DNA from: Candidatus Saccharimonadota bacterium | GTDB taxonomy: Bacteria; Patescibacteriota; Saccharimonadia; Saccharimonadales; Saccharimonadaceae | Assembly (NCBI GenBank): GCA_028286395.1 | Contig: JAQBRS010000002.1 | Span: 1 to 55,892, forward strand | DNA: 55,892 nt | Direction: 5' to 3' | Shown: one piece after another, positions 22,018-25,820 of the stretch | Layout of the letters: every line of letters begins with the position of its first letter | Numbering within the stretch: position 1 is the first letter of the stretch | Notes under the pieces: model-generated | The model's database searches: none | The model's input: the letters and a program-made list of their open reading frames with translations, nothing else | Told to the model about the DNA's origin: nothing | Program-made: the position numbers and the translations under genes

Positions 22018-22494
22018 ATGAATAACTTTGATAACGATCCAACTCGGACAGAAAAGTTACACACTCCTGAGTCTTACGAGAGTAAGTCGCATGTTATCTT
22101 ACGTGAGCCGACTGAAATTGATATTGAACAGGCCGATCGTGCCCCAGATGTTTCATTCGAAGAGGTGACGGGGTTCGTAGAAAGTAAACTTATTGGTGAA
22201 ATTGTTACGCCGGATGATCATATTGGTATTATTCGTACAGATTTTCCCGACATGCAAGCTTTTATTACCCTTGTCGGTAGAGACCGGGAGTCTGTCACAA
22301 TTCTTAACCCTGGTGAAGAAGCGGCAATAGATGTAAGTGCAGGGAAAGGTAAATGTATCGTCTACTTGGATGAGACAGGTACGCGGCTATTTGTTCGTGC
22401 CGAAGATCCAGATTCTGCGTACAAGATTTTTACTCGAGTTCTTGAAGAGTATAAAGTCATCGAAGATTTCAGTTCCGACGACCCTGAATACTAG
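22018..22494 (+). CDS. Hypothetical acidic cytoplasmic protein
   Basis: I do not recognise this 158-residue protein. It is soluble and acidic, with alternating short strands and helices and no signal peptide. It has recognisable repeated hydrophobic strands ('HIGIIRTDFPDMQAFITLVGR', 'KGKCIVYLDETGTRLFVRA'). Three in-frame ATGs are possible (22000, 22012, 22018). 22018 fits best with a promoter whose -10 ends at 22008 and would make the mRNA leaderless; the first ATG lies before the -10 and is excluded. It stands alone between VKOR and the T-box leader. Confidence 0.6.
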   Translation: MNNFDNDPTRTEKLHTPESYESKSHVILREPTEIDIEQADRAPDVSFEEVTGFVESKLIGEIVTPDDHIGIIRTDFPDMQAFITLVGRDRESVTILNPGEEAAIDVSAGKGKCIVYLDETGTRLFVRAEDPDSAYKIFTRVLEEYKVIEDFSSDDPEY

Positions 22495-22499
22495 TCTCC

Positions 22500-22529
22500 T
22501 TGCTTCATCACCACAAGAGGTGGTAAAAT
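22500..22529 (+). promoter_or_regulatory. Promoter of the T-box/ileS transcription unit
   Basis: TTGCTT (22500-22505), 18-base spacer, extended -10 TGG-TAAAAT (22524-22529). Transcription should start near 22536, about 210 bases before the first gene. Confidence 0.7.
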
Positions 22530-22536
22530 ACAAACA

Positions 22537-22738
22537 AGACGTTTTAGTGGTCATCAGCCATGAGTCTTCGGAAGAACAGCCCAGTCATCGACAAGGCCTA
22601 GTAGAACCGAACGTGCACGCGACGATACAGCGATAAACTAAGCGCTAAAAGAATCACTTCTTTTGGAAGCCAGATGGAACCGTCCTCATAAGGACTCTGG
22701 CGTCTAAGAGAAGTGATTTTTATTTTATATAAGGAAGC
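22537..22738 (+). promoter_or_regulatory. T-box-like leader of the ileS operon
   Basis: The T-box core is clear. The bulge UGGAACC (22675-22681) sits between helix A1 (GCCAGA 22669-22674 / UCUGGC 22696-22701) and helix A2 (GUCC 22682-22685 / GGAC 22692-22695), the antiterminator that binds the tRNA acceptor end. Around it, 22652-22661 pairs with 22709-22718 and a U-rich run follows. The Shine-Dalgarno AAGGAAG (22731-22737) can also pair with CUUCUUU (22658-22664), so control could be transcriptional or translational. Stem I is very short: 22539-22543 pairs with 22610-22614. An AUC isoleucine codon at 22587-22589 (another at 22553) could be the specifier. Confidence 0.8.
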
Positions 22739-22743
22739 CTGAC

Positions 22744-22956
22744 ATGGAAGAAAAAGAACCAACTGTCGCTAAGAAAAATTTTTATAGCACCGAATGGCGA
22801 CGTTTGATGGAAGTCGTAAAGTACAACTTCGCCGAAGACGAAGTGCTGTTGCAGGACTTTGATCTTGATAGTGCGATTGCTTTTGTGTCAGCTCGGCTTA
22901 TCGATAAGGGACTCGATCCGCACGAAATTTTTAAAGCAGTGGGAGTAGAAAAATAA
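22744..22956 (+). CDS. Small protein upstream of ileS, unknown function
   Basis: A 70-residue, charged protein with predicted helices ('NFYSTEWRRLMEVVKYNFAEDEVLLQDFDLDSAIAFVSARLIDKGLDPHEIFKAVG'), no signal peptide and no family I know. It is the first gene after the T-box leader. Its stop overlaps the ileS start codon by one base (TAATG), so it is translationally coupled to ileS and controlled by the same leader. A strong Shine-Dalgarno (aaggaag) precedes it. The coding potential is supported by the tight spacing and proper RBS. Confidence 0.75.
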   Translation: MEEKEPTVAKKNFYSTEWRRLMEVVKYNFAEDEVLLQDFDLDSAIAFVSARLIDKGLDPHEIFKAVGVEK

Positions 22957-25820
22957 TGAAGTTTCAATCTGGTACACGACGTCGCGCCCTCGAATACGAA
23001 AAGGACATTATTCGCTATTGGAAAGACAACAAAACGTTTGAGAAATCGATTGAGCAACGTCCTGTGAGTAATTCGTACGTCTTTTATGATGGCCCTCCAT
23101 TTATTACCGGGGTTCCGCACCACGGAACCCTCCTTAGTTCGATCGTGAAAGATGCCGTACCTCGTTACCAAACGATGAAGGGCAAGCATGTTGAACGTGT
23201 GTGGGGTTGGGACACACATGGACTGCCGGCTGAAAACTTTATTGAGAAAAAACTTGGCATTACAAGCCGTCACGAAGTCGGGGAGAAGATTAGCCTCGAA
23301 GAATACATCACGACTGCTCGCGAAAGCATGGTTTCGAACGCGGCACTATGGGAAGACACCATTGATCGCATTGGCCGTTGGGTCGACTTCAAGGGCGCGT
23401 ATCGCACGATGGACAAGGACTATATGGAGTCCGTCTGGTGGGCGTTTAAACAATTGTACGAAAAAGGCAAAATCTACGAAGGCGAACGGGTCCTTATGTA
23501 CGACACACAGTGGGCGACACCACTTTCAAAAGCTGAGGTCACCATGGATGCCGGCGCATATATCGATGTGACCGATCCTAGTGTCTACACGAAATTTAAG
23601 ATTATCGGTGAAGAGTATTCATTACTTGCGTGGACAACAACCCCTTGGACATTGCCTGCAAATACGGCTGTGGCAGTAAACCCTGATGTTGAATACGCCG
23701 AAGTTGAAATTGACGGTGAGCACCTGGTCATCGCAAAAGAATTACTCAATACAGTTCTGACTGACGAAAAACACAATGTCCTGAACTACAAAATCATTCG
23801 TGCGATAAGCGGCGAATCTCTTGTCGGCAAAAGCTACGAACCGCTATTCGTCGATCGTGGCGAAAACGCTCATAAAGTCTGGGCTGCCGACTACGTCACG
23901 ACCGATTCTGGTACGGGTATTGTGCACTTGGCACCTGCTTATGGCGAAGAAGACTTTATTCTCGCGAAGAGCCTCGGTATCCCCATCATTCACGTACTTG
24001 ATGAATACGGCGTCTACACTGAAGGTGAGTGGGAAGGTTTGGAAGTTTGGGCTACGAATAAGATTATTGCCAAGGCACTCCTTGAAAAAGGTATTGTTTG
24101 GAAAATCGACTATATCCGACACGAATATCCGCACAACCCACGTACTGGCCAGCGCCTGATGTATCGTGCGCACCCAAGCTGGTTTATGGATATCGACGGA
24201 CAACGCGTCCAGATGCTTGAAGAGAACACTGAGCACATTAATTGGTTCCCAGATCATATCAAGCATGGTCGTTTCGAAAAAACGATTGAGACCGCACCTG
24301 ACTGGAATTTATCTCGCGACCGTTTCTGGGCAACCGCAATGCCTGTTTGGAAGGGAACCGACGACGAAGGGAATGAACACGTCAAAGTTATTGGTAGCTA
24401 CGCAGAACTCAAAGAATTAAGTGGTCAAGAGCTCGACGATTATCACCGCCCGTGGATTGATGACGTCGAATTTGACCTCGATGGTGTCCATTACACACGC
24501 ATCGATAAGGTGCTTGACGGTTGGTTTGAGTCTGGCTCAATGCCATTTGCCCAGTTCCATTATCCATTCGAAAATGTCGAAAAATTCGAAGCCAATTTCC
24601 CCGGTGATTTCATCGTGGAATACGTCGGCCAAGTTCGTGCCTGGTTCTACTACGTCCATGCCGTCAACGTCGGACTGTTCGGACATAACGCTTTTAAGAA
24701 TGTGATCGTGACCGGAAATGTCGCGGGTAACGACGGTCTGAAGATGAGCAAGAGCAAGGGTAACTTCACCGACCCGAACTTGCTCATGGATCAATATAGT
24801 GCCGATAGCCTGCGATTTACATTGCTTTCAAGTCCATTACTCTCTGGTGAAGATTTCGCCCTGAAAGATAAAGAAGTAGGGGACGTTGCTCGCAAACTCA
24901 GCATGGTCTGGAACATGTACGACTTCTTTACGCTCTACGCTGAAGTCGATGGCTGGGAATTTAACGGAACGCTCGAAGACCCGTCAGAAGGCCTCGAGAA
25001 CCCACTCGACCAATGGATCGTGAGCCGTGTCCACCAGCTGATCGAAGAGATTGAGAAGAATATGGACGGCTACGATATTCCAAACGCCGTCAAACCAATC
25101 CTGCCGTTTATCGACGATGCGAGTAACTGGTTTGTTCGCCGTTCACGTCGCCGTTTTTGGAAGTCAGAAGATGACACGGACAAGAACAACGCCTACCGAA
25201 CGCTCCACTATGTCCTGGTTCGCCTCAGCCAAGCTTTGGCGCCATTCGTGCCATTCTTAGCTGAAGAACTGTACCGAAATCTGACAGACCAAGAAAGCGT
25301 TCACCTGACAAATTGGCCAGAAGTTGGTCATATCAATGAATTGGTCGTCAAAGACATGGAGACTGTTCGTGAATACGTGAACCAGGCGTTGAGCCTGCGC
25401 GCTGCTGCTAAGATGAAAATTCGTCAGCCACTCGCCAGCGTCACGATTCCAACTCGTGGTGAATTCGTGAACTTCGAAGACGTCCTGACCGAAGAGCTAA
25501 ACGTGAAATCGGTCATTGTCGGTGGGGAACTGGCGCTTGATCTTGAAATCACCCCGGAATTAAAACGTGAAGGCTACGCCCGTGAGATCATTCGTTACGT
25601 GCAGGCCGCACGAAAGAATGCAGGATTGAACGTAGATGACCACATTGACCTCGCTATCCTGGCGACCGATGAAGACCTTCAACGAACGATTGATGAGTTC
25701 GGAAAAGTCATCGCCACCGAAACGCTTGCAGCCGAAATCACTGGCAACGAATACGCTCACGCCGAATCGATCACTATCGAGGGTTTGAGCCTCGAACTCT
25801 CTCTTCAAAAAGTAATGTAG
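22956..25820 (+). CDS. ileS: Isoleucyl-tRNA synthetase (eukaryote-like type 2)
   Basis: Charges tRNA-Ile. The 954-residue class I enzyme has the variant HIGH motif PHHGT (54-58) inside 'DGPPFITGVPHHGTLLSSIVKD', a large editing domain with 'WTTTPWTLPANTAVAV', and KMSKS (596-600). The 'VERVWGWDTHGLPAENFIEKKLGI' region and the overall pattern match the eukaryote-like IleS2 group, often mupirocin-tolerant, more than the E. coli type. It is expressed with the 70-residue protein under the T-box-like leader, which fits control by uncharged tRNA-Ile. Confidence 0.95.
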   Translation: MKFQSGTRRRALEYEKDIIRYWKDNKTFEKSIEQRPVSNSYVFYDGPPFITGVPHHGTLLSSIVKDAVPRYQTMKGKHVERVWGWDTHGLPAENFIEKKLGITSRHEVGEKISLEEYITTARESMVSNAALWEDTIDRIGRWVDFKGAYRTMDKDYMESVWWAFKQLYEKGKIYEGERVLMYDTQWATPLSKAEVTMDAGAYIDVTDPSVYTKFKIIGEEYSLLAWTTTPWTLPANTAVAVNPDVEYAEVEIDGEHLVIAKELLNTVLTDEKHNVLNYKIIRAISGESLVGKSYEPLFVDRGENAHKVWAADYVTTDSGTGIVHLAPAYGEEDFILAKSLGIPIIHVLDEYGVYTEGEWEGLEVWATNKIIAKALLEKGIVWKIDYIRHEYPHNPRTGQRLMYRAHPSWFMDIDGQRVQMLEENTEHINWFPDHIKHGRFEKTIETAPDWNLSRDRFWATAMPVWKGTDDEGNEHVKVIGSYAELKELSGQELDDYHRPWIDDVEFDLDGVHYTRIDKVLDGWFESGSMPFAQFHYPFENVEKFEANFPGDFIVEYVGQVRAWFYYVHAVNVGLFGHNAFKNVIVTGNVAGNDGLKMSKSKGNFTDPNLLMDQYSADSLRFTLLSSPLLSGEDFALKDKEVGDVARKLSMVWNMYDFFTLYAEVDGWEFNGTLEDPSEGLENPLDQWIVSRVHQLIEEIEKNMDGYDIPNAVKPILPFIDDASNWFVRRSRRRFWKSEDDTDKNNAYRTLHYVLVRLSQALAPFVPFLAEELYRNLTDQESVHLTNWPEVGHINELVVKDMETVREYVNQALSLRAAAKMKIRQPLASVTIPTRGEFVNFEDVLTEELNVKSVIVGGELALDLEITPELKREGYAREIIRYVQAARKNAGLNVDDHIDLAILATDEDLQRTIDEFGKVIATETLAAEITGNEYAHAESITIEGLSLELSLQKVM

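Follow-up and report, generated by a model that had tools for sequence, protein, structure and literature searches.

A probable tRNA-Ile T-box riboswitch with a nested terminator upstream of ileS in a Saccharibacterium, and related leaders across Patescibacteria

The window analysed here, a whole stretch of 55,892 nucleotides of a Candidatus Saccharimonadota contig, contains a leader of about 200 nt (22537-22738, + strand) with the ileS operon of this tiny Saccharibacterium downstream. The leader is intergenic, the preceding gene stopping at 22494 and a 70-aa ORF beginning at 22744. As the original prediction had it, the operon ends in ileS; the 70-aa ORF comes first and its junction with ileS overlaps as TAATG. 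This small ORF is identical in the closest relative (G007) and was not found in the other fetched loci of the family. The features surrounding the leader are:

22500-22529, + strand: putative promoter read from sequence, with a -35-like TTGCTT, an 18-nt spacer and a -10-like TAAAAT
22731-22735, + strand: Shine-Dalgarno sequence (SD) AAGGA, 3′ of the U tract and outside the terminator hairpin
22744-22956, + strand: 70-aa ORF, first gene of the transcript, no Pfam match
22956-25820, + strand: ileS, isoleucyl-tRNA synthetase, the presumed regulated gene, with Pfam tRNA-synt_1, Anticodon_1 and related domains

Stem I opens the leader about 8 nt past the -10-like TAAAAT. A strict-consensus promoter scan of the window did not list the 22500-22529 site; among related leaders, an upstream -10-like box is found in 52/55, against a mean of 22 and a maximum of 31 in shuffles.

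The 5′ part of the leader comprises two stems and a pseudoknot:

22537-22567, + strand: stem I, with lower stem AGAC/GUCU, upper stem GUGG/CCAU and a K-turn-like GUUUUA/GA internal loop
22553-22555, + strand: specifier AUC, within the 7-nt apical loop UCAUCAG of a 4-bp hairpin (22547-22561)
22567-22611, + strand: stem II, with outer helix UUCGG/CCGAA and an S-turn-like internal motif AAGAA / AGUAGAA
22612-22632, + strand: stem IIA/B, an H-type pseudoknot of CGU/ACG and CGC/GCG

The very short stem I with an AUC specifier, already proposed from the window, is conserved class-wide: AUC takes up positions 3-5 in a 7-nt loop with 4 closing bp, 5′ of the TAGA motif, in 55/60 ileS-type loci, for a chance rate roughly estimated at about 4% per locus. 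The base following AUC is A in 48 of these 55 leaders. Among 28 aligned relatives the upper stem is 100% paired, with double changes at three of its four pairs. Across relatives the lower stem is only partly paired, and the putative K-turn reads GA/GA in 30/55 leaders and UA/GA in the window. The outer helix of stem II is fully paired in 36/55 leaders and keeps 4/5 pairs in 11/55, with 20 different sequence pairs, and the putative S-turn of the window is recognised from its sequence motif. Both IIA/B helices (97.6% and 92.9% of cells paired in the 28 relatives) display double changes.

The 3′ part is organised as follows:

22640-22668, + strand: RRRxG (AAGCG), stem III (CUAAAAGAA, loop UCAC, UUCUUUUGG) and AA
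22669-22701, + strand: antiterminator made of A1, bulge and A2, as in T-boxes
22669-22674 / 22696-22701, + strand: helix A1, GCCAGA/UCUGGC
22675-22681, + strand: T-box bulge UGGAACC
22682-22686 / 22691-22695, + strand: helix A2, GUCCU/AGGAC
22652-22727, + strand: nested intrinsic terminator, with 5′ arm 22652-22667, 3′ arm 22703-22718 and a U tract ending at 22727

The layout 5′-RRRxG-stem III-AA-3′ has been defined in PMC7583486, and RRRxG and AA flank stem III in the window in just this way. The arrangement of A1, UGGAACC and A2 from which the original prediction started is present in the leader, and so is the nesting of this core in an outer hairpin with a U run: the hairpin enclosing A1/A2 finishes in UUUUUAUUUU, and the 3′ domain folds with a z of -7.28, none of 200 shuffles being as good. 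The 5′ arm of the terminator reuses the stem III 3′ strand, and the hairpin tip is formed by A1/A2. Two 3′ folds can be drawn, an ON fold with stem III (-21.4 kcal/mol) and an OFF fold with the terminator (-36.3 kcal/mol). Stem II, IIA/B and stem III as modules, the unusual way of switching and the spread through the phylum, described below, go beyond what had been predicted.

Using blastn over 150 genomes of the same family, the leader was found in many of them, and nearly all of 30 fetched loci precede ileS, directly or with intervening coding sequence. In the 28-sequence alignment AUC, the TAG of AGUAGAA, TCTTTTGGAA and GATGG are invariant and the U tract is strongly kept. Covariation in stem I, A1, A2 and the outer stem had been suggested as a check, and all of them covary in these relatives. 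The ON fold (29 pairs) has 98.1% of cells paired, with 12 double-change pairs and 72 double-change cells, and the OFF fold (30 pairs) 95.2%, with 14 and 59, respectively; the main measures of each were reached by 0/500 shuffles. A1 is 100% paired, one of its pairs showing 11 double changes, and one pair of A2 shows 14, a G-U pair being frequent beside the bulge. Strand UUCUUUUGG is paired in both folds. In the family alignment taken alone, only one side of stem III varies; over 54 class-level sequences, in an alignment that was fitted to the structure and is hence biased toward it, it is 97.9% paired with double changes at 8/9 pairs, and stem III, A1 and A2 together are 98.7% paired and covary. 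One family member (L004, genome G135) carries within its leader a 22-nt insertion, AAATATCACCTCTTTGAGGTTG, which looks as if the stem III/terminator strands had been copied in part.

The Rfam check gave a divided answer. Several relatives score E 1e-6 to 1e-4 with RF00230, in the identical place and on the identical strand, whereas for the window leader itself no T-box is reported, whether at the cut-offs or with E values relaxed to 10. Matches of RF00230 to CPR leaders range from E 1e-8 to 1e-2 (28-52 bits for the relatives), and relaxed searches recover 13/20 phylum loci and 5/20 class loci at E ≤0.02, all below 93 bits. That gathering cut-off, a curation threshold for a model spanning 219 positions including the stem I domain, which is reduced here, is reached neither by the window leader nor by its relatives, which is why CPR leaders have stayed unannotated as T-boxes. 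Searches for tRNA, tmRNA or other Rfam families at the site returned only chance-level microRNA, snoRNA and antisense matches. As judged by sequence comparison, the leader almost certainly belongs to the T-boxes.

Models built on these leaders delineate their distribution. The family model R1 matched 212/393 class genomes at E ≤0.01 and model R2 73/380 phylum genomes; the discriminator model R3 matched 147/380 phylum genomes, a count in which about 4 false matches are expected at the cut-off, E-values being rough, and which is partly obtained by construction since R3 was built from loci including phylum members. In a control, R3 picked up 11 loci of a Tissierellia genome, whose top five were Rfam T-boxes scoring over the gathering threshold. 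Six non-CPR genomes of other phyla yielded no significant match (none below E 3). A pattern scan of genome contigs gave 91 matches, mostly titled Candidatus Saccharibacteria or TM7, with oral taxa 348 and 350 among them. Seven matches titled as other phyla (Pyrinomonadaceae, Nitrospirae, Waddliaceae, Acidobacteria, Barnesiella, Tissierellia, Pseudoalteromonas) were attributed to chance, R1 matching 0/7. Paired matches that could have indicated a second T-box per genome corresponded, in the loci checked, to the near-palindromic hairpin read on the opposite strand. The spread and diversity of these elements suggest that T-boxes are old in Patescibacteria rather than recent imports.

CPR T-box-like leaders precede not only ileS but also valS, thrS, glyS, aspS and argG. 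With downstream genes identified by NCBIfam and specifiers picked out visually in the leaders, specifier and gene agree: AUC for ileS, GUC for valS, ACC or ACU for thrS, GGC for glyS and CGC for argG. For aspS, one leader (L193) has GAC in a hairpin loop and four others have no clear loop, with a UGGC bulge matching G73 of tRNA-Asp. No clear stem I was seen in L183, L190, L204, L320, L325 and L331-L333. These leaders share the discriminator module with the window's, together with short or reduced 5′ domains, and those of thrS mostly have no recognisable stem II S-turn. Loci L176-L205, L213 and L320-L339, from many Patescibacteria families, comprise leaders of this kind before valS, thrS, glyS, aspS, proS and argG, and genome G624 has two, one of them preceding argG and the other carrying CGC in the loop. 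Outside the window but in the same genome, a T-box-like element (G000:C4:24464-24549, - strand) lies about 50 nt upstream of thrS and displays a UGGAACC bulge, a loop CCCAACCAU with ACC, and a long hairpin with a U tract. R3 alone gives it E 2.4; its position and specifier make it a likely T-box.

A constitutive intrinsic terminator that insulates ileS from the preceding gene, any resemblance to a T-box being coincidental, would account for a hairpin that is very stable and followed by a U tract. It fits poorly with a promoter-like box placed 5′ of the hairpin, with the conservation and covariation of stem I, stem II and the pseudoknot, with specifiers that suit the genes, and with Rfam T-box homology in both directions. 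As a full account it is refuted by covariation in the ON fold and by specifiers that match their genes, and we assign it a negligible probability. Comparison can be taken to establish the anatomy of a T-box here, with covariation of both folds, T-box homology and the specifier/gene match, and it is very likely that the leader is a tRNA-Ile T-box riboswitch controlling transcription of the ileS operon.

The bulge itself brings further information. Relatives carry UGGUACC, UGGAACC, UGGUAAC or UGGCACC; UGGN is kept in them, retention of the UGGNACC bulge having been named as another check. The N of the bulge is A in 15/15 thrS leaders. Outside the window's family, valS or ileS leaders have A in 2/36 (Fisher p 4e-11, with thrS and valS counts entered by hand and related sequences that are not independent), and the tRNA-Thr genes of the window's genome end in UCCA (U73). 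The tRNA-Ile of relatives ends in ACCA (A73) and has the loop CUGAUAA in all 36 matches. N complements the discriminator base in the majority of ileS relatives (UGGU) and, taken by gene class, in thrS and valS, but not in the window, where N is A facing A73 of same-genus tRNA-Ile. The window shares a UGGA bulge before ileS with a subgroup (L001, L002, L003, L007, L009, L010 and L014), and UGGUAAC replaces UGGNACC in another subgroup of few relatives. Since UGG is retained, we treat the mismatch of the window as a departure within the T-box family. Family and pattern searches found no tRNA-Ile(GAU) and no tRNA-Ala among the examined tRNAs of this assembly; the contig begins within 23S rRNA, followed by 5S rRNA (1-723), and the two tRNAs were possibly lost along with the broken rRNA operon.

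Among the known systems closest to the leader are the actinobacterial class II ileS T-boxes of Nocardia farcinica, Mycobacterium tuberculosis and M. smegmatis, which are translational and have a short stem I (PMC10651847, PMC7583486). Compared by published description, they share with it the ileS target, a short stem I with AUC then A in its apical loop, the stem II S-turn (here a motif only), the IIA/B pseudoknot, and stem III with A1/bulge/A2; covariation argues for the apical specifier, the stem II outer helix and the pseudoknot here. The window leader differs from them by its phylum, its U-tract terminator, a free SD and a variable bulge N. The original prediction had left the mode of control open and mentioned an alternative pairing hiding the SD. 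This pairing is not recovered: when the leader is folded to minimum energy, the SD is predicted to be unpaired save for a weak 3-bp local hairpin, unlike the sequestration that characterises class II. Could tRNA binding nevertheless free the SD as in Actinobacteria, the long hairpin being a mere scaffold? The modules follow one another as in the ileS T-boxes of Nocardia and Mycobacterium, from a short stem I bearing an apical specifier and a K-turn (K-turn-like here) to the stem II S-turn and IIA/B, and UCUUUU of the stem III 3′ strand could pair with AAGGA. Yet the SD comes after the U tract and is no part of the predicted terminator hairpin, and the long 3′ hairpin and U tract are conserved, and we consider translational control quite improbable. 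The conserved U tract, the nested terminator and the free SD together favour transcription attenuation, which we hold to be highly probable.

In this respect the leader approaches the Firmicute transcriptional T-boxes (RF00230), with a discriminator homologous in both directions and attenuation by a U-tract terminator, although it has no long stem I. In described transcriptional T-boxes the 3′ strands of A1/A2 build the terminator (PMC7583486), whereas here its 5′ arm is the 3′ strand of stem III and A1/A2 stay at the tip. By automatic scoring, in which some boundary calls are uncertain, this nested form was found in 15/15 loci of the window's family, in 24/29 order/class loci (of the other five, 2 show no U run, 2 are ambiguous and 1 is local) and in 11/26 phylum loci (8 local), which makes it typical of Saccharibacteria and not of all CPR T-boxes. 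Some of the other Patescibacteria T-boxes have a local terminator placed at A1′ or directly behind it (glyS L177, valS L180 and L196, ileS L202). An ileS T-box of genome G151 (L158) has a short separate terminator right after A1′, which is not nested.

According to the model that we propose, stem I would present AUC to the GAU anticodon, aided by stem II and the IIA/B pseudoknot. During synthesis of the 3′ domain, stem III and the A1/bulge/A2 antiterminator would form first. With uncharged tRNA, the CCA end would pair with the UGG of the bulge, stem III and its flanking purines would be held, and polymerase would continue into ileS. With charged or absent tRNA, the next 18 nt would invade stem III, UUCUUUUGG pairing downstream, and this invasion would lead to a long terminator tipped by A1/A2 and to a stop at the U tract. 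We infer tRNA binding, sensing of charging, termination and the choice of stem III, rather than A1/A2, as the exchanged helix. Folding of the growing transcript, which is a free-energy prediction only, gives stem III from nt 130 and a competing partial pairing of the A1 region until about nt 168. Stem III with A1/A2 is complete in this prediction at nt 171-172, and the terminator appears in its nested form from nt 176 onward.

A different switch can be envisaged in which A1/A2 shearing still decides, uncharged tRNA stabilising A1/A2 and the nested terminator arising via an intermediate with A1/A2 reopened. The OFF state of described T-boxes indeed has A1 sheared (PMC7583486), the competing pairing of the A1 region in the growing transcript is in line with it, and with A1 intact in both end states, a transient opening is compatible with folding alone. 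On the other hand, the predicted end states retain A1/A2 and swap only stem III, and the shared strand pairs with both partners, both pairings covarying. Shearing appears unlikely to us, and exchange of stem III without disruption of A1/A2, as modelled, is fairly probable. There is a reasonable likelihood for the whole picture, namely that Patescibacteria hold a large, previously unreported set of T-boxes and that in the Saccharibacterial switch tRNA shields stem III, the antiterminator never being dismantled.

A 2008 survey reported T-boxes in few phyla, abundant only in Firmicutes, and left their origin unclear (PMC2494555). T-boxes in the Candidate Phyla Radiation appear to be undescribed so far, a search limited to an open-access library having found no relevant T-box or riboswitch report for this group. 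If true, their presence across this radiation would bear directly on when T-boxes arose, and the nested terminator would add a new kind of output to a well-studied RNA. Elements hidden by the Rfam cut-off imply that the annotation of many genomes could change. Those Saccharibacteria that grow in culture with a host would make testing feasible. For these gene-poor, amino-acid-dependent bacteria, such leaders would provide a protein-free way of sensing amino acid supply.
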